Positions 9,333-21,775 of a DNA stretch of 38,176 nucleotides are shown piece after piece. The position numbers and the translations under genes are program-made. The notes under the pieces were generated by a model that was given only the letters and a program-made list of their open reading frames with translations, did no database searches and was not told the DNA's origin. This DNA comes from Syntrophomonadaceae bacterium (GTDB lineage Bacteria > Bacillota > Dethiobacteria > DTU022 > UBA8154): assembly GCA_003563385.1 (NCBI GenBank), contig PWRZ01000099.1, positions 1 to 38,176 on the forward strand, in the 5' to 3' direction. Position 1 is the first letter of the stretch. The number at the start of each line of letters is the position of its first letter.

Positions 9333-11222
9333 TTATTTCACCTTTTCCCGAACCGGCAACAGGTTGAGTGCTTCTTCGGCTATACTCTCACCTGTCAGGC
9401 AGTGGCGCCTCAGCAGCTCTTCTCTCTTGCCGTGACCGGTAAAAGGATCTTTAAGACCCATCCGTTGCAGCCGCACTCCTTTTAGCCCTTCCTCATTCAA
9501 CATTTCCAGGACAGCGCTGCCAAAGCCTCCACAAATGAGGTGCTCTTCAACCGTGATTACATTTTTGCACCTGTCCATCCAGGTACAGAGCAGGTCCCTG
9601 TCCAGCGGTTCTATAAATCTCGGGTCAATGACGGTGCTTTTAATACCCCTCTGCAGGAGAAGCTGGTGCGCTTCAAGGGCGGGCTGGACCGCGGTGCCGG
9701 CAGCCAGTATGGCAATGTCGCGGCCTTCTCTCAGCAGGCGGCCCTTTCCGGGGGGGATGCAGCTTATTTGGGAAGAGGGCACTTTCTCCGCTTTATCCCG
9801 TGGATACCTTATGGCGGCAGGAGAATCGAGCTGCAGCGCCGTCTTTAACATGCAGGCCAGTTCCAGGCCGCTGCTGGGGGCCATCAGGACAATCCCGGGC
9901 ATGTTCCGCAGGTAGGAGAGGTCAAAGAGGCCGTTATGTGTATCCCCGTCCTCTCCAACCAGGCCGGCCCTGTCAACGGCAAAAACAACAGGGAGCCCCT
10001 GCAGGCAGACATCATGGAGGATCTGGTCATAAGCTCTCTGTAAAAAGGTGCTGTAAATAGCCACTACCGGCTTAAAGCCCTCCACGGCAAGGCCGGCGGC
10101 CATTGTTACAGCGTGCTGCTCGGCTATGCCGACATCAAAAAAGCGCTCCGGCAGCTTGGAGGCAAATTCTTCCAGTCCGGTTCCCGCCGTCATCGCTGCT
10201 GTAATGGCAGTAATGGAAGGGTCCTTATGGGCCATCTCCACCAGTACAGAGCCGAAAAGCTCGCTGTATGTACACTTGTTGGAGTCATCTTCGTGCCGGA
10301 ATGACCTGCCGGTATCCATGCTGAAGGGAGAAACGCCGTGGAAACGGTGCGGTTCTTTTTCTGCGTAGGGGTAACCTTTACCCTTTTGTGTAACCACGTG
10401 GACCAGAACAGGGCCGTTTCTGGCCTTTGCCTGCATAAAAAACTCCTGGAGCCTGGAAATGCAGTGCCCGTCGACAGGCCCCAGGTAGGTAAAACCGAGC
10501 TCCTCAAATAAAATCCCCGGGACAAGTAGATACTTTAAACTGTCCTTTAAGCGTTCGGCGGAACGCACCATCGTTTTCCCTATGGCCGGGATGCGCGCCA
10601 GGAACTGCTCCAGGTCCTCCTTGAGACGGTAATACTTCGGGTCCGTCCTCAACCGGGCCAGGTAAGAAGGCAGACCGCCCACATTCTCGTGAATGGACAT
10701 CTCGTTGTCATTCAATACCACTATAAAGTTGGTGTCGATGTCCCCGCCGTGATTGAGGGCCTCCAGGGCCATTCCCCCGGTGAGGGCCCCGTCACCGATG
10801 ATTGCGATGACGTTGTTCTTTTCAGACCTGATATCACGGGCCAGCGCCATTCCAAGTGCTGCTGAAAGCGAGGTGCTGCTGTGCCCGACACCAAAAACAT
10901 CGTACGGGCTTTCCTCTCTTTTGGGAAAACCGCTAATCCCGCCGTAACTGCGAATGGTCCTGAACTGCTCCCGGCGGCCGGTCAATATCTTGTGGGCGTA
11001 GCACTGGTGGCCGACATCCCAGACGATCTTGTCATACGGCGCATCAAACACCCTGTGCAGCGCTATTGTCAGCTCGACAACTCCCAGGCTGGAAGCAAGA
11101 TGCCCTCCCCTTTCGGAGATCACCTTTATCATGTAGCCCCTGCACTCGTCGGCCAGTTGCTCCAGCTCTTTTATGCTCATTTTTTTCAGGTCACCGGGAC
11201 TGTTAATACTGTCTAGAATCAA
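9333..11222 (-). CDS. dxs: 1-deoxy-D-xylulose-5-phosphate synthase
   Basis: WDVGHQCYAHKILTGRR, IGDGALTGGMALEALNH, DIGIAEQHAVT-like (FDVGIAEQHAVTMAAG), TTG start with GGAGG SD. Confidence 0.97.
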   Translation of the reverse strand: MILDSINSPGDLKKMSIKELEQLADECRGYMIKVISERGGHLASSLGVVELTIALHRVFDAPYDKIVWDVGHQCYAHKILTGRREQFRTIRSYGGISGFPKREESPYDVFGVGHSSTSLSAALGMALARDIRSEKNNVIAIIGDGALTGGMALEALNHGGDIDTNFIVVLNDNEMSIHENVGGLPSYLARLRTDPKYYRLKEDLEQFLARIPAIGKTMVRSAERLKDSLKYLLVPGILFEELGFTYLGPVDGHCISRLQEFFMQAKARNGPVLVHVVTQKGKGYPYAEKEPHRFHGVSPFSMDTGRSFRHEDDSNKCTYSELFGSVLVEMAHKDPSITAITAAMTAGTGLEEFASKLPERFFDVGIAEQHAVTMAAGLAVEGFKPVVAIYSTFLQRAYDQILHDVCLQGLPVVFAVDRAGLVGEDGDTHNGLFDLSYLRNMPGIVLMAPSSGLELACMLKTALQLDSPAAIRYPRDKAEKVPSSQISCIPPGKGRLLREGRDIAILAAGTAVQPALEAHQLLLQRGIKSTVIDPRFIEPLDRDLLCTWMDRCKNVITVEEHLICGGFGSAVLEMLNEEGLKGVRLQRMGLKDPFTGHGKREELLRRHCLTGESIAEEALNLLPVREKVK

Positions 11223-11259: not shown

Positions 11260-11841
11260 TCAGCGCTGCCTGTTTATTCTCCAAATAAACAACCGCTGCA
11301 GTGTAGTCATCAGCCGCGCTACGAACATGACAATCTCCGTTGAGTTGTTAATAGCAAGGGACTTACCGACCGCTTTGCCGCCTACGGTCAACGCCGATAC
11401 AAAACCGGTCAGCAATATGCTTACATAAATCTCGTTCAGTGATGAGCCGCTGGCAACCAGGTTAATAACTATAACCGCTGCTATGGCCCCGCTGACAACC
11501 CCGCTTATATCCCCGACTACATCATTACAGAAATTGGCGACCTGTTCCGCATTACGTACCAGGTACATACCTTTAATGGCCCCGTATTTCTTTTTGGCCG
11601 CCTTGGCATGGAAGGGCTTCTCATCGGCAGCCGTTACCGCTGTGCCAACGGTATCAAATATGATGCCCGTTAAAACAATCATTATCAATATAATAAAAGA
11701 AATAACAAGCGACGGTATGCTCTGGACCAGGTATCGTGTAAACAGGGCAAAAATAGATGCTAAAAAAAAAGTCCACGTGCTGACTATAATTACCCAGCGA
11801 AAAGTGCTCTTTTTTTTGCGTTCTCGACGATTTTTTGCCAA
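11260..11841 (-). CDS. oapA: OLE-associated membrane protein OapA-like (multi-TM)
   Basis: Polybasic N-terminus, multiple TM helices, located immediately 3' of the OLE RNA and 5' of dxs; TTG start with AAGGAG SD. Confidence 0.8.
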   Translation of the reverse strand: MAKNRRERKKKSTFRWVIIVSTWTFFLASIFALFTRYLVQSIPSLVISFIILIMIVLTGIIFDTVGTAVTAADEKPFHAKAAKKKYGAIKGMYLVRNAEQVANFCNDVVGDISGVVSGAIAAVIVINLVASGSSLNEIYVSILLTGFVSALTVGGKAVGKSLAINNSTEIVMFVARLMTTLQRLFIWRINRQR

Positions 11842-11868
11842 GTCTTTTACTCCTTACCCTTGCAGAAC

Positions 11869-12438
11869 AAAAAAAGACACGGGTGGTAACTTCATGGGTA
11901 AACTTTGCGGCTTAAGGTCCAGCAGGCTTTCCCAAATATTCACCAGTCTGTCACCAAACTGGCAGTTTCCTTTTAAGAATATTTCTGCCGTGTTGCCACC
12001 AGCAGGGCTGGACTACCACTAAGACCACACCTTAATCCCCATAAAGCCTCCCTCCGAACAGTCTAGGAGTTTTCCTCGATAGCACATTTACGCTCCCTAG
12101 CCTCTTTTGCAGCCCTGGTTTCGAAGGCGCACGCCTTTTCCCCCCAGGACCACTCAAGGCAGGCTACACTGTACACAGCATCTACCGCATACAGGTTCTC
12201 TCCCAAGTCGTAACCTTTTGCTTCTCAGCAATCCGCCACTTACTTGGGTCTCCACGAAGGCGGGGTCAACGCCTACATGCCTTTGTAGATCGCCCCACCT
12301 TCTTAACTCCCAGCACCGACCCCCAACTGGGCTTCGGCAGCCGGCACCAGGAACTTCATCGATATGCCCTTAAGCGGATTTTTAGGCCCGCCTTCAGGAA
12401 CGTGTGTGCTAACTAGAATACTGCACCACCCATGTCCC
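11869..12438 (-). ncRNA. ole: OLE (ornate, large, extremophilic) RNA
   Basis: ~0.57-kb intergenic gap with no credible ORF, between ispA and the oapA-like gene; dense nested pairings (GTCCAGC 12007-12013 with GCTGGAC 11917-11923; AAATATTC/GAATATTT 11977-11984 with 11934-11941; GCAA-capped hairpin); 5'/3' terminal 12-bp stem; own promoter. Confidence 0.85.
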
Positions 12439-12444
12439 GCTCCT

Positions 12445-12473
12445 ATTATAGCATAATGCCTGAACAGTCTCAA
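12445..12473 (-). promoter_or_regulatory. SigmaA promoter for OLE RNA
   Basis: Minus strand TTGAGA (12468-12473), 17-nt spacer, TG-C-TATAAT extended -10 (12445-12450). Confidence 0.8.
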
Positions 12474-12491
12474 TACAGCACCCACTTTTCC

Positions 12492-12622
12492 GGACACGGG
12501 GACGGTCCGGACAGGCGGACACGGGGACGGTTCTCCTGTCCGGCAGCTCCGCACCCACTTTTCCGGACACGGGGACGGTTCTCCTGTCCGGGGCAGGACA
12601 CGGGGACGGTTCTCCTGTCCGG
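12492..12622. repeat. Cluster of four REP-like hairpin repeats (consensus GGACACGGGGACGGTTCTCCTGTCCGG)
   Basis: Copies at 12492-12510 (8-bp deleted), 12517-12543, 12565-12591, 12596-12622; each full copy folds as GGACA-c-GGGGA-CGGT-TCTCC-TGTCC. Confidence 0.85.
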
Positions 12623-12623
12623 C

Positions 12624-13541
12624 TTAATGGTCCCGGAAAATTATGAAGCGGGTCAGCTCTTTTAAATTAGCGGCGCTTTCGCCAAATGACTGCAGCTCGT
12701 CTACGGCCTGCCAGTATAGCTGCTCCCTGAGGGCATTTGCTTGCTGCAGTCCGTAGAGGCTGACATAAGTGGCTTTTTCCTTTTTTTGATCCATGCCCTT
12801 TGTTTTTCCCATTTTGGCCTCATCTCCACGTACATCCAGTACATCGTCTACTACTTGAAAAGCCCTTCCCAGCGGTTCGGCAAAACGGGTGATTTTCTCA
12901 ATTTCTTCTTTTGTACAGCCGGCCAGCAAAGCCCCTACCCTGATGGAAGCGACCAGGAGCGCTCCCGTCTTGTGGGCATTTATATATTCCAGGGTTTGAG
13001 GATCAATCTTCTGCCCCTCCGACTGTAAATCAACCACCTGCCCGGCAACCATCCCCCGCACCCCGGCTGCCCTGGCTATTTCGTAAACCACCTGCAGCTT
13101 GAGGGCCGGTTTAACTTCTGTCCAGTAAAGGCGGCTTAACTCATGGCCCTGTTTCCCCTCGTCGGCCAATAATTCAAAGGCAAGAGTTAAAAGAGCATCA
13201 CCGGCAAGGATAGCCGTTGCTTCACCAAATACTTTGTGCGCGGTGAGGCGTCCCCTCCTGTAATCATCGTCATCCATAGATGGAAGGTCGTCGTGTATAA
13301 GCGAGTATGTATGAATTAATTCCAGGGCACAGGCAGCGGGTACTGCTCTTTGCCAGTCAGTTGTAAAAAGCTCCGCGGTCAGCAGTACAAGGACAGGCCT
13401 TACCCGCTTCCCGCCGGCAAAAACACTGTAGCGCATGGCCCGGTGAATGGCCTGCGGGTACTCATCCTCGCCGGGAAGATAATATTCCAGTGCGCTGTCT
13501 ATAAGCTCTGTTCTACCCTTTATTATTTTGGCATAGGCCAT
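12624..13541 (-). CDS. ispA: Farnesyl/geranyl diphosphate synthase (polyprenyl synthetase)
   Basis: GGKRVRPVLVLL, LIHTYSLIHDDLPSMDDDDYRRG, FQVVDDVLDVRGD Asp-rich motifs. Confidence 0.96.
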   Translation of the reverse strand: MAYAKIIKGRTELIDSALEYYLPGEDEYPQAIHRAMRYSVFAGGKRVRPVLVLLTAELFTTDWQRAVPAACALELIHTYSLIHDDLPSMDDDDYRRGRLTAHKVFGEATAILAGDALLTLAFELLADEGKQGHELSRLYWTEVKPALKLQVVYEIARAAGVRGMVAGQVVDLQSEGQKIDPQTLEYINAHKTGALLVASIRVGALLAGCTKEEIEKITRFAEPLGRAFQVVDDVLDVRGDEAKMGKTKGMDQKKEKATYVSLYGLQQANALREQLYWQAVDELQSFGESAANLKELTRFIIFRDH

Positions 13542-16213: not shown

Positions 16214-19200
16214 TTATTTCCCCTGAAGCCCTTTTTCCTCAAGGTACTTTTCAAACCACTTTTCCACGCTGTCGCATGTGTCCACGCTTACAAATGCCGG
16301 CTTACCCTTATCGGGCAGTACAACATTGATCTTGCCGTTAGCCGAAACGAGCTGCTCTACGCTGTACAGAGGCGAACCGGGCCAGTACGGAGCTTCATCG
16401 AGTAAGTTCGAGCTCAGTTTTTCAAACAGGGGCACCGTATTGCTTATTTCCGGCCACACGTCAGCAGGCCTATCGATTTTTTGCTTGTAGCCCATCATCT
16501 CCATCAGCTCAAGCAGTACCTGCCAGTTTTCCCTGCCGCCGGCCGGCTCCAGTGCCGCCGTCAGCTTCTGCAGCCGCCGTTCGCTGTTGGTAAAGCTGCC
16601 CGTCGTCTCCGCAAAGGTGGCTGCCGGCAGGACTACGTCTGCCTTGCTGGCCAGCTCCGTAAGGAAGATATCCTGGACAACCAGCAAGTCGGCATTAGCC
16701 AGTTTTTCTGCAGTTTCTGTATCGGGGTCCTCACCAAAAACAAATACTCCTTTTACTTCCTTGCTTTCAACTGCCTGCAGCACCTGCTGGACATTTTTAC
16801 CGGCAGCAGAGGGTACAGGAGCTTTCCACTTTTGGGCAAACTTATTCCTGACCTCCTCGCTGCCGACATTCTGGTAGCCGGGCAGGTAATCCGGAGAGAC
16901 ACCCATGTCCAGCATCCCCTGGCTGTTGCAGCGGGCACGCAGGTTAATGATACCGCGGCGCGGCATGCCAACCTTGCCCAGGACAGCGCTCAATCCCGCC
17001 AGCAGCTGCACTGCTTCCGGGCTCAAATCCTTGCTGCCCAGGATCAGCAGGGACTTCTTAGACCCGGCATATTTTTTAACCAGGGCTGAAACATCTTCCG
17101 CCGATAAACCGCTTCCGGCCAGCAGGTCGTCCATCTTTGCATCTTTCAGCTTCTGTCCGACCAGCTCGTAGTTTTCTACGTATTTCTCGACGAAAGCTTC
17201 GTCAACGAGGCCCTCCTGCACGGCAGAAAGAAGCAGGGCGGCGAAAACAGTGGCATCGGCTGTCTCATTTAACTTGAAGAAACTGCTCGCATATTTCTTT
17301 AGTTTTGTCTCTTTGCTGTCTATCAGCCACAGCTCGGACCCCTTTTCGGCTGCCTGCTTGATCTTCAGCCCCGCTACCGGGTAATCATTAAAATCAACCC
17401 CCACGGCCAGTATGAAGTCGGCAGAGGCGATCTCCGCATAGGGATTGGTAGAAGCACCGATACCGAGAACATCAATGAGCGGGTTGCCCGGTTCTGACAA
17501 ACTGTTGATATTGTTCGTCCCCAGGTTGGCACGGGCAAACTTCTGGATCAGGTAGCTTTCCTCGTTGGTATAGCGGGGGCCGGCGAAAACAGCCAGGCTG
17601 TCGCCTCCAAAACGTGCCTTTAAGGACTTCGCTTTTTTAGTTGCATGTACCAAGGCATCGTTCCAGGTCGTTTCCTTAAGAACCCCGTTTTCCCTTATCA
17701 GGGGAGCGGTAATCCTGGCAGCGTCGTTCACATATTCAAAACCAAAACGCCCTTTCTTGCAGAGCAGGCCCTCGTTTACAGGCCCGGGTAAAGGCACAAC
17801 ACGGGCGATCCGGTCAGCAATCGTCTCCACCTGCAGGCTGCACCCCACCCCACAGTAGCCGCATACGGTCTGTGTCTCATTCAGCTCCCAGGGGGCCGGC
17901 TTTCTAAAGGGCATGTTTTCCAACAGTGCACCGGTAGGGCATACGGCTACACACTGCCCGCAGGCAACACAGGTGGTCTCCTGCAGGGGCAGGTCCAGTG
18001 AAGGACTGACGTATGTTTCAAAGCCGCGGTTAACCAGGCCAAGCGCCTCCGCACCAATAATTTCAGTGCAGGTACGCACGCACAGCCCGCAGAGGATGCA
18101 TTTGTTCCGGTCCCTGACAATAAAGGGATGAACCTCTTCTTCGTAATCATGCTTTTCGCCGACAATCCTTTCCGGCTTTACACCGTAGTCGGTTGCATAG
18201 GCGCGCAGCAAGCACTCAAAGGCATCGAAGCAGCCGCATTCGAGACACCTTTCAGCATCATTGAAGGCATCTTCCGGCTTGAGCCCCAGCTCAATCTCCC
18301 GGAAATTGTTAACGCGTATCTCCGGGGGCACCAGGGGCATTTTTACCTTGTCAATCTTTTCCCAGTCGGCAAAATGTTCTTCTGTAAGGTCGTCCTGGAT
18401 GATGCTGTAATCGGTCCTGTACGGCATTACCTTGCCGCCCAGGTGGTTGTTGATAACCTCCGCGGCACGCTTCCCGGCGGCAATAGCCTCGATAGCTATG
18501 CCGGGCCCGGTAACGGCATCCCCGCCGGCAAAGACTCCGGGGGTGGTGGTAAGGAAGGTCTCCTCTTTTGCGTCAATGGTGTTCCACTTGTCGATACCAA
18601 CCTCGTCCTTGATATTTTCGACACCGACATCCTGCCCGATGGCGGCAATAATGTTATCAACCTCAAGGGTAAAGTAGGCATCGGGAATCGGTTCAGGACG
18701 GCGGCGCCCTGAGGCATCCGGCTCTCCCAGCTGCATTTTCTGGCAGACCATCTTTTCCGCTTTGCCGTTACCCTCGATATTGACCGGGGCGGCGAGCAGG
18801 TAAAATTCCACTCCTTCTTCATCGGCCTCGATGACTTCTATATCCTGTGCGGGCATCTGCTCGCGTGCCCGCCTGTAAACCACCATAACTTGCTCTGCTC
18901 CCAGCCTCTTGGAGGTCCTGGCGGCATCCATGGCCGTGTTACCACCGCCTATTACTGCCACCCTGTTCCCTATCCTGACATCTTCATTGAGCATAACGGC
19001 CCTTAAGAACTCCGTTCCACCCAAAACACCGGGCATATCCTCGCCGGGAACTCCCATTCTGCGGCTGTGCTGGGCTCCTATGGCCAGGTAGACGGCATCA
19101 TAACCGTTTTTGAAGAGGTAATCAATGGTAAAATCCTCTCCCAGCTGCACGTTTGTTTTGGCTTCCACTCCCAGGTCCAGGATCAACTTAATCTCGGCGT

Positions 19201-19939
19201 CAAGTAACTTTTTAGGCAGACGATACTCCGGTATGCCGTACCGCAGCATGCCCCCCAGCTCCGGTAAGGCCTCGAATACGGTAACAGCGTGTCCCATCCT
19301 TCTCAGGAAAAACGCTGCTGTCAGCCCTGCCGGCCCCGAACCCACAACGGCCACCTTTTCCCCGGTGTCGGCTGCTACTTCGGGCATGTAAGGCTCATCG
19401 CTGGCCAGGTCCATATCCGCTATTAAGCGCTTGTAATAGCGTATGGCCACAGGCCCTTCAACAAGGTTGCGGCGGCAGTTCTCTTCACACGGAGCAGGGC
19501 AAACCCTGCCTATGGAAGCAGGCAGAGGCATAAACTCCTTGACCAGCTTCAAAGCCTCCCTGTACTGGCCGTTACCAACGAGGGCCGCATAACCCTGGGC
19601 ATCGCAGTTGGCCGGGCAGGCCAGGACGCAGGGGGCGCGGCAGTCGCCGCGGTGGTCCGAGAGCATCAGCTCCAGTGCCAGCTTGCGCGCTTTTTTTATC
19701 TCCTCGTTTTCGGTCTCTATAACCATTCCGTCTGCTATCTTGGTGGCGCAAGCCCGTAAAAGGCGCGGCATCCCTTCCACTTTTACCAGGCAAAGGCCGC
19801 AGGAGGCATATACCTCCAGCTCTCCGCTGAAACAAAGCGTCGGTATTTCAATGCCGTTTTCCATGGCCACGTCCAGGATAGTCTGATCGGTATAGCCACA
19901 AAACTCCTGACCGTTTATATTAATGCGTACTTGACTCAT
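16214..19939 (-). CDS. Large Fe-S flavoprotein: N-terminal 2Fe-2S, NfnB/GltD-like NAD(P)H domain, 2x[4Fe-4S], NuoG/FdhA-like C-terminal domain; StnC-like candidate
   Basis: CFSGELEVYASCGLCLVKVEG; CPAPCEENCRR; VAVVGSGPAGLTAAFFLRRMGHAVTVFE; CILCGLCVRTC / CVACGQCVAVCPTGAL; CGYCGVGC FDH-type cluster. Confidence 0.85.
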   Translation of the reverse strand: MSQVRININGQEFCGYTDQTILDVAMENGIEIPTLCFSGELEVYASCGLCLVKVEGMPRLLRACATKIADGMVIETENEEIKKARKLALELMLSDHRGDCRAPCVLACPANCDAQGYAALVGNGQYREALKLVKEFMPLPASIGRVCPAPCEENCRRNLVEGPVAIRYYKRLIADMDLASDEPYMPEVAADTGEKVAVVGSGPAGLTAAFFLRRMGHAVTVFEALPELGGMLRYGIPEYRLPKKLLDAEIKLILDLGVEAKTNVQLGEDFTIDYLFKNGYDAVYLAIGAQHSRRMGVPGEDMPGVLGGTEFLRAVMLNEDVRIGNRVAVIGGGNTAMDAARTSKRLGAEQVMVVYRRAREQMPAQDIEVIEADEEGVEFYLLAAPVNIEGNGKAEKMVCQKMQLGEPDASGRRRPEPIPDAYFTLEVDNIIAAIGQDVGVENIKDEVGIDKWNTIDAKEETFLTTTPGVFAGGDAVTGPGIAIEAIAAGKRAAEVINNHLGGKVMPYRTDYSIIQDDLTEEHFADWEKIDKVKMPLVPPEIRVNNFREIELGLKPEDAFNDAERCLECGCFDAFECLLRAYATDYGVKPERIVGEKHDYEEEVHPFIVRDRNKCILCGLCVRTCTEIIGAEALGLVNRGFETYVSPSLDLPLQETTCVACGQCVAVCPTGALLENMPFRKPAPWELNETQTVCGYCGVGCSLQVETIADRIARVVPLPGPVNEGLLCKKGRFGFEYVNDAARITAPLIRENGVLKETTWNDALVHATKKAKSLKARFGGDSLAVFAGPRYTNEESYLIQKFARANLGTNNINSLSEPGNPLIDVLGIGASTNPYAEIASADFILAVGVDFNDYPVAGLKIKQAAEKGSELWLIDSKETKLKKYASSFFKLNETADATVFAALLLSAVQEGLVDEAFVEKYVENYELVGQKLKDAKMDDLLAGSGLSAEDVSALVKKYAGSKKSLLILGSKDLSPEAVQLLAGLSAVLGKVGMPRRGIINLRARCNSQGMLDMGVSPDYLPGYQNVGSEEVRNKFAQKWKAPVPSAAGKNVQQVLQAVESKEVKGVFVFGEDPDTETAEKLANADLLVVQDIFLTELASKADVVLPAATFAETTGSFTNSERRLQKLTAALEPAGGRENWQVLLELMEMMGYKQKIDRPADVWPEISNTVPLFEKLSSNLLDEAPYWPGSPLYSVEQLVSANGKINVVLPDKGKPAFVSVDTCDSVEKWFEKYLEEKGLQGK

Positions 19940-19996: not shown

Positions 19997-21775
19997 CTAA
20001 TCTACCAGAACAGCGTCGAACCTGCAGACATCATAACAGTTCCCGCACTTAATGCACTTTTCCTGATCGATTACGTGAGGCTCTTTCTTTTCTCCGGTAA
20101 TGAACTCGGCGGGGCAGCGCTTGGCACAGCGGCGGCAGCCGTTGCACAGCTCGGTGTCAATTACATAGGTGAGCAATTCACGGCAAACCCGCGCCGGGCA
20201 TTTGCGGTCCATAATATGGGCCACGTATTCATCGCGGAAATAATTAAGCGTTGTAAGGACGGGATTGGGTCCGGTCTGTCCAAGACCGCACAGAGCACCT
20301 TCTCTAACGTAATAGGCCAGTTCCTCCAGTAAATCGAGCTCTTCCGGCTTGGCATTCCCTTCTGTTATGCGGGTCAATATTTCCAGCATTCGCTTGGTCC
20401 CCAGGCGGCAGGGGACACATTTGCCGCAGGATTCAAGCTGTACGAAATTCAGGAAAAACTTGGCTACATCTACCATGCAGGTAGTTTCATCCATGACGAT
20501 CATACCGCCGGAACCCATGATGGCGCCTGTCTTGCCCACAGAGTCGTAATCGACCGGGGTATCCAGCAGGGTCTCCGGAATGCAGCCCCCGGAAGGACCT
20601 CCCAGCTGCACTCCTTTAAATTTCTTGTCGTCTCGGATACCGCCACCGACCCCGTAGATTACATCTCCCAGGGGAATGCCCATGGGCACCTCTATCAGCC
20701 CGCCCCGCTTCATTTTGCCGGCCAGGGCGAAAACCTTGGTCCCCTTACTCTTTTCCGTCCCGTAAGCGGCGAACTTGTCCGCCCCGTGAAGCACAATCCA
20801 GGGAACATTGGCAAAGGTCTCTACGTTGTTAATAGAAGTCGGTTTATTCCAAAGACCCTTTTCGGCAGGAAATGGAGGCCGTAGCGTGGGCATGCCTCTT
20901 TCCCCCTGCAGGGAAGCAATAAGGGCGGTTTCTTCTCCGCATACAAAAGCGCCCGCCCCCTTCTTGATCTTTATATTAAAGCTGAAATCGGAGCCTAGGA
21001 TATTCTCACCTAAAAGACTCGCTTCCTTGGCATCCTTTATGGCCTTTTCAAGACGAATAATTGCCAGTGGGTACTCAGCCCGGCAGTATACATGCCCCTC
21101 GGATGCACCGATTGCGTACGCCGCTATGGACATTCCTTCAACAACGGAGTGGGGATCGCCTTCAATGATACTGCGGTCCATGAAAGCACCGGGGTCTCCT
21201 TCGTCAGCATTGCAGACCACGTATTTCTGGTCACCGGGATTGTTCCTGGTAAAACGCCACTTCAAGCCGGTCGGGAAGCCGGCACCGCCCCTTCCACGGA
21301 GGCCGGAACGGAGCACTTCTTCTATAAGCTGTTCCGGGGTCATTTCTTTTATTGCTTTCTCGGTCCCTTTGTATCCGCCCCTTTCCCTGTAATCATCCAG
21401 GGATTCGGGATCGATAACACCGCAGTTGCGCAGGGCAATGCGCGTCTGCTGCCCAACTACATCTTCTCTCTCTTCAGTTATAAGCATGTCCTCCGGTGGT
21501 TCTCCCTTGCGGATATGCTCATCAATAATCCGGGTAGCATTTTCCTCCGTAACTCCCCCATATGAATAGAGCTTACCATCAGGAGTAATTACATCGACGA
21601 TAGGCTCCGCGTAACACATGCCGATACAGCCTGTCCTTTGAAGTTCCACGTTCAGGCCGTTTTTGGCTATTTCCTTATCCAGGACATCATAAGTTTTATA
21701 TCCGCCAGCCGCTATACCACAAGTGCTCAACCCTACCTTAATGACAGTTTTTCCGTGTTCCTGCAATACAGGCAC
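19997..21775 (-). CDS. NuoF/HydB-like FMN, NADH-binding subunit with N-terminal thioredoxin-like and C-terminal 2x[4Fe-4S]; StnB-like candidate
   Basis: GLRGRGGAGFPTGLKWRF, CNADEGDPGAFMDRSIIEGDPH, GAGAFVCGEETALIASLQGERG, SCGKCVPCRLGT; C-terminal CNGCRRCAKRCP / CIKCGNCYDVCRFDAV. Confidence 0.9.
   Translation of the reverse strand: MPVLQEHGKTVIKVGLSTCGIAAGGYKTYDVLDKEIAKNGLNVELQRTGCIGMCYAEPIVDVITPDGKLYSYGGVTEENATRIIDEHIRKGEPPEDMLITEEREDVVGQQTRIALRNCGVIDPESLDDYRERGGYKGTEKAIKEMTPEQLIEEVLRSGLRGRGGAGFPTGLKWRFTRNNPGDQKYVVCNADEGDPGAFMDRSIIEGDPHSVVEGMSIAAYAIGASEGHVYCRAEYPLAIIRLEKAIKDAKEASLLGENILGSDFSFNIKIKKGAGAFVCGEETALIASLQGERGMPTLRPPFPAEKGLWNKPTSINNVETFANVPWIVLHGADKFAAYGTEKSKGTKVFALAGKMKRGGLIEVPMGIPLGDVIYGVGGGIRDDKKFKGVQLGGPSGGCIPETLLDTPVDYDSVGKTGAIMGSGGMIVMDETTCMVDVAKFFLNFVQLESCGKCVPCRLGTKRMLEILTRITEGNAKPEELDLLEELAYYVREGALCGLGQTGPNPVLTTLNYFRDEYVAHIMDRKCPARVCRELLTYVIDTELCNGCRRCAKRCPAEFITGEKKEPHVIDQEKCIKCGNCYDVCRFDAVLVD

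Follow-up and report, generated by a model that had tools for sequence, protein, structure and literature searches.

An OLE RNA gene with a class-wide short P9 arm, next to oapA, in a Syntrophomonadaceae bacterium

Introduction

What fills the gap of some 0.6 kb between ispA and a membrane-protein gene in this genome and, if it is an OLE RNA, does it carry all the elements from which OLE dimers are built? OLE is a membrane-associated bacterial RNA and, to our knowledge, among the largest structured bacterial RNAs without a known biochemical function. A preliminary description of the window (the whole 38,176-nucleotide stretch of DNA analysed here) had placed an OLE RNA in this gap and had read the adjacent membrane protein as its partner OapA; both identifications stand. 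Beyond them we report a short P9 arm, a conserved promoter, dispersed repeats upstream of it, and the genes for OapB and OapC. This OLE belongs to a known RNA class and is ordinary within it, and the point that deserves closer attention is that its P9 arm is short throughout the taxonomic class of the host. This taxonomic class, hereafter "the class", is presumably Dethiobacteria: it contains a MAG named Dethiobacter, a name that NCBI places there.

Results

A complete OLE RNA between ispA and oapA

All genes of the cluster lie on the minus strand, in the order xseA, xseB, ispA, OLE, oapA, dxs, tlyA, NAD kinase, recN. The preliminary description had this order right, apart from the NAD-kinase gene between tlyA and recN, which it did not list. 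The elements around the gap are:

9333 to 11222, minus strand: dxs (TIGR00204, 820 bits)
11260 to 11841, minus strand: oapA, 193 aa, with a TTG start and an AAGGAG ribosome-binding site; CNNM-like membrane protein with DxxxD
11867 to 12445, minus strand: OLE RNA (RF01071), covariance-model span given by cmscan; predicted transcript from about 12438 to 11869
12624 to 13541, minus strand: ispA-type prenyl synthase gene (NF045485, 364 bits)

The Rfam covariance model of OLE, RF01071, which the preliminary description had proposed as a check, matches the gap very strongly (cmscan, 12445-11867, minus strand; 488.6 bits against a gathering cut-off of 50; E 1.5e-140) and along all 616 model positions (1-616). 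This is the sole Rfam match at the gathering threshold in the window, and the genome holds one copy of OLE. Standard pairs are formed in the window OLE at 133 of the 143 model pairs. Among 62 distinct short-arm OLEs of the class, 90.8% of cells pair according to the Rfam structure, compared to 38-45% after a shift of the partners by 1-3 columns; the percentage is biased toward that structure, which was taken from the family model. Stronger support for the fold comes from the excess of double changes: two-sided changes occur at 78 of the 143 pairs in these 62 sequences, against 29-43 in the shifted controls. P3, which is unpaired in the Rfam model, comprises 15 bp in the window; across 59 class and 35 long-arm OLEs its median length is 14 bp (12-16), its sequence takes many different forms and complementarity is found in both groups, with a mean duplex energy in the class of -19.0 kcal/mol versus -10.4 kcal/mol when one strand is shuffled. 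The kink-turn strands are conserved too. The elements of the RNA, apart from P9, map as follows:

12425 to 12431, minus strand: 5' strand of P1, GGGTGGT, pairing with ACCACCC at 11887-11881; read directly from the sequence
12396 to 12411, minus strand: 5' strand of P3/P3.1, the proposed membrane-spanning helix, pairing with 12097-12080
12392-12387 and 12378-12373, minus strand: P4, flanking L4
12379 to 12386, minus strand: L4, A-rich loop, dimer bridge B1; CTAAAAATCCG in 59/63 class and 35/35 long-arm OLEs
12328 to 12332, minus strand: L5, GCCCA, dimer bridge B2; kept in 61/63 class members
12278 to 12283, minus strand: L6 with GGC, dimer bridge B2; CAANGGCATG in 62/63 class members
12169 to 12248, minus strand: P7 and P8, full length; 79 nt between anchors (median 80 in the class, 81 in long-arm OLEs)
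12080 to 12097, minus strand: 3' strand of P3/P3.1, placed by P3 complementarity
11934 to 12012, minus strand: P12-P13-P14, the region including the published OapB-binding site; class pairing 88-99%, 85 nt, equal in all groups
11881 to 11887, minus strand: 3' strand of P1, ACCACCC, read directly from the sequence

The gap could also be imagined to encode protein, through ORFs of 83 or 88 aa, or to be a mere leader of oapA: ORFs are present on both strands and the RNA adjoins oapA. The full-length match to the OLE model and the many compensatory changes rule out the protein-coding reading and leave the alternative as a whole with next to no credibility; the 83- and 88-aa frames that overlap the RNA are purely mechanical, in line with their having been called spurious before. 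Apparent OLE fragments in relatives (G003, G011, G017, G065, G067, G077 and G095) were taken as assembly breaks, because several of them sit at contig ends.

A dedicated promoter in the class

Upstream and at the end of the RNA we recognised two further elements:

12445 to 12473, minus strand: putative OLE promoter, TTGAGA (12473-12468), 17 nt, TG-extended TATAAT (12450-12445)
11869 to 11875, minus strand: run of seven T after P1, possible terminator or processing site, read directly from the sequence

The window promoter, TTGAGA-17-TGCTATAAT, shares 11 of 12 positions with the sigma-70 consensus. Counting sites with at least 9/12 matches that end 6-22 nt before the conserved OLE 5' end, we find a dedicated promoter of the form TTGAGN-17-TGNTATAAT immediately before the RNA in 51 of 60 class members; shuffled upstream sequence yields 2. 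Among long-arm OLEs a promoter-like site stands at the same distance in only 11/34 (3 in shuffled sequence), which rules out that this promoter is a general OLE feature. As for the other end, the T7 run could terminate the transcript, yet a run of at least five T after P1 is found in only 23/63 class members, so that termination at this point is not a rule of the class. The OLE cluster of Halalkalibacterium halodurans is reported as one polycistronic transcript (PMC12265935).

Between ispA and the promoter (12478-12622) the window contains a dispersed repeat, GGACAGGAGAACCGTCCCCGTGTCC, in three exact copies and one partial copy, two of them flanked by GGAAAAGTGGGTGC. Allowing at most one mismatch, we count 16 copies of its 19-nt core in the genome and 0 in a reversed control; we did not find the repeat in the loci of other genomes, nor in open papers. 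Elsewhere in the window, 16214-19939 encodes a 1241-aa protein that joins a 2Fe-2S domain, a GltD/NfnB-like pyridine nucleotide oxidoreductase and a molybdopterin (formate dehydrogenase-like) domain, and its gene is adjoined by a NuoF-like gene at 19997-21775.

OapA, OapB and OapC

In all 74 relatives' loci where this could be checked, oapA is the gene directly downstream of OLE, as it is here; upstream, among the genes sought, we found ispA (44) or folD (23). The comparison of the 193-aa protein with OapA, suggested in the preliminary description, returned the OapA motif and a CNNM/CorB-like fold. Its DxxxD signature, D107/D111, is invariant in 19 aligned sequences, and the protein matches the Pfam CNNM family (PF01595, E 1.8e-07). 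An AlphaFold2 model (pLDDT 80) was used for a fold search, whose top hits are structures of the archaeal MtCorB (7m1t and 7m1u; probability 1.00, TM-score 0.46-0.53, E 0.013-0.08, weak by E-value); searched by sequence against solved structures, as a single sequence or as a profile, the protein gave no match, and only the fold search produced any.

The protein thus shares DxxxD and a CNNM-like fold with the CNNM/CorB (MpfA) Mg2+ transporters. Unlike them, it ends after the membrane domain at 193 aa, with neither the CBS pair nor the CorC domain, and lacks the conserved CNNM proline, having Gly where YfjD has Pro; DxxxD, the missing proline and a CNNM-like membrane fold are the marks of OapA. 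An invariant Lys156 aligns with the Mg2+-binding Glu of CorB in an alignment with E. coli YfjD that is tentative because identity is low, and this would argue, just as tentatively, against a CorB-like transport of Mg2+ by OapA.

At the level of the genome, where our statements rest on family searches, the other two partners are also present. The OapB gene lies between map and infA and matches the solved OapB structure 7k9b (E 4.9e-7, residues 4-92). The OapC/YbxF gene lies between rpoC and rpsL (neighbours rpoC, rpsL and rpsG) and encodes an L7Ae-type k-turn protein (PF01248; matches 3v7e/4lck, E 3e-14). OapA is the only CNNM-domain protein found in the genome, which fits the published anticorrelation of OLE and MpfA (PMC11332333); as the genome is an 84.8% complete MAG, an MpfA paralogue may have escaped notice.

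The P9 arm is short throughout the class

The P9 region of the window comprises:

12100 to 12160, minus strand: P9, shortened, with basal helices 12160-12156/12104-12100 and 12153-12144/12118-12109
12137-12133 and 12128-12124, minus strand: P9 end hairpin, loop GUGC

Arm length was counted between the P9 motifs GAGTGG and AAACC. Most Bacillota OLEs have an arm of about 64 nt with a self-complementary terminal loop, usually GGCC; the window arm measures 28 nt and forms a 5-bp hairpin. The arm is short in 63/63 distinct class OLEs (10-38 nt, median 27), versus 55-70 nt (median 64.5) in 36 other OLEs. Self-complementarity over 4 nt or more is seen in the terminal loops of 29/36 long arms, against 44% in shuffled loops, and in those of 4/63 class arms, against 7%. 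Likewise, GGCC occurs in 28/35 long arms versus 1/62 class arms.

Strict patterns applied to 399 genomes of the phylum identified long-arm OLEs in 85 genomes and short-arm OLEs in 16; seven of these 16 belong to the window's own class, and two match both patterns. The strict long-arm pattern was found in none of 98 class genomes. The short arm is not an effect of assembly, because the class includes a complete single-contig genome (G073) with it. In a tree built on the OLE RNA without the P9 arm, whose root is uncertain, the short-arm OLEs of the class all fall into one group. The short/long label changes 7 times on this tree, compared to a mean of 30 with shuffled labels; short arms appear in about six other places on it. 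Whether the change was a loss or a later gain of the long arm is a direction that rests on this RNA tree and its uncertain root. Short or intermediate arms are also seen in several unrelated families of the phylum (L083-L091), which suggests repeated P9 loss. One long-arm OLE, L035 (G023:C128), comes from a MAG assigned to the same order and groups with OLEs outside the class; it is probably a mis-binned contig or a transfer.

The shortening is confined to P9: the P5-P6, P7-P8 and P12-P14 spans have the same lengths in the class as elsewhere, and P3-P8, P12-P14 and the dimer loops L4, L5 and L6 are unchanged. This bears on the variants already published. PMC11332333 describes a variant 1 (TANB77) with shorter P7, P8 and P9, in which the OapB site is often absent, and a variant 2 (RF39) without P7 and P8. 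A shorter P9 is common to variant 1 and the window OLE, so the short arm might be variant 1 under another name; in the window, however, only P9 is short, P7-P8 (79 nt, like long-arm OLEs) and P12-P14 (85 nt) are full length, and OapB and OapC are present. Because P7, P8 and P12-P14 are full length we reject membership of either variant, and the identity with variant 1 is quite improbable. The score also speaks against it, 488.6 bits being well above the 390-bit full-length cut-off of PMC11332333, which was set for a different model and serves as a guide only. Since variants were sorted by bit score there, a P9-only truncation scoring like ours would probably be counted as full length. A search of the running text of open papers found no description of a P9-only OLE truncation.

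Two of three dimer bridges are kept

Cryo-EM structures of OLE dimers from C. acetobutylicum and C. botulinum contain three bridges: B1 joins L4 to L4, B2 joins L5 with L6 and L7, and at B3 the ends of the two P9 arms meet in a symmetric kissing loop, GGCC being replaced by GAUC or AGCU in other species (PMC12286853, PMC12265935, PMC12412911). B3 is a structural feature of these solved dimers and stands outside the published definition of the OLE family. The sequences of B1 (L4) and B2 (L5, L6) are kept in 59/63, 61/63 and 62/63 class members, respectively; they are nearly invariant and so lie beyond the reach of a covariation test. A symmetric P9 kissing loop, on the other hand, is not found in the window OLE, with its 28-nt arm and loop GUGC. 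Judged by sequence, B3 is the only one of the three bridges missing in the class.

Since neither the length of the arm nor its loop sequence suits B3, OLEs of the class would most likely dimerise through B1 and B2 only. We think it probable that they do so and that the P9 arch lies outside the core function of the RNA. Alternatively, short-arm OLEs may not dimerise, or may do so differently, with L4, L5 and L6 kept for intramolecular packing or protein contacts. P9 has been described as one of the OLE dimer centres (PMC12265935, PMC12286853), and conservation of a loop does not by itself establish an intermolecular contact; still, L4, L5 and L6 keep the exact B1/B2 sequences of the cryo-EM dimers as fully as long-arm RNAs do, and we regard this alternative as unlikely, if worth taking seriously. 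It is far harder to believe that the kissing function of P9 moved to another loop: OLE L7 loops are variable and P7 has its full length, yet self-complementary loops in P7, P8 and P13 of the class show no excess, and B1 and B2 are unchanged. The absence of any gain of such loops speaks against L7, L8 and L13 as new sites.

Discussion

The window OLE shares with the RF01071 RNAs of H. halodurans, C. acetobutylicum and C. botulinum the whole covariance model, P3-P8, P12-P14, L4/L5/L6 and the kink-turn strands, as well as oapA directly downstream, an isoprenoid-gene neighbourhood, and OapB and OapC in the genome. It differs from them in its P9 arm of 28 nt instead of about 64 nt, in the absence of a self-complementary loop (B3), and in a conserved dedicated promoter.

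We therefore put forward, with a probability of about 0.85, that the locus is a functional OLE RNA gene with its partner oapA, and that their products would form an OLE-OapA particle at the membrane, with B1 and B2 as its only dimer bridges. Transcription of the RNA would start at its own sigma-70-type promoter, with or without additional read-through from the ispA operon. The transcript would fold into a P4-P9 domain and a second domain (P1, P2 and P10-P15), joined by the P3 helix of about 14 bp, and an OapA dimer, assisted by OapB and OapC, would hold it at the membrane, two copies most likely meeting through the A-rich L4 loops (B1) and through L5-L6 (B2). By analogy with H. halodurans, where OLE is located at the membrane through OapA and has roles under alcohol, cold, Mg2+ and carbon stress (PMC11332333, PMC12265935), the particle may serve stress and Mg2+ adaptation.

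For the family at large, a whole class without the P9 arch, together with short arms that may have arisen about seven times in all, inclines us to the view that OLE dimers can be held by B1 and B2 alone, the P9 arch and its kissing loop being a lineage-specific addition and not part of the core function. We hold this slightly less firmly than the corresponding statement about the class. Recent OLE structures include the unusual P9 arch and kissing loop in the dimer, and the short-P9 lineage separates the role of this arch from that of the core, since it retains all other elements and the three known protein partners. It is thus a natural test of the need for a P9 joint between dimer copies, and its short-arm RNAs are open to in vitro tests and to swaps into H. 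halodurans. For the organisms themselves, the conserved promoter suggests that OLE of this class can be expressed apart from the isoprenoid operon.
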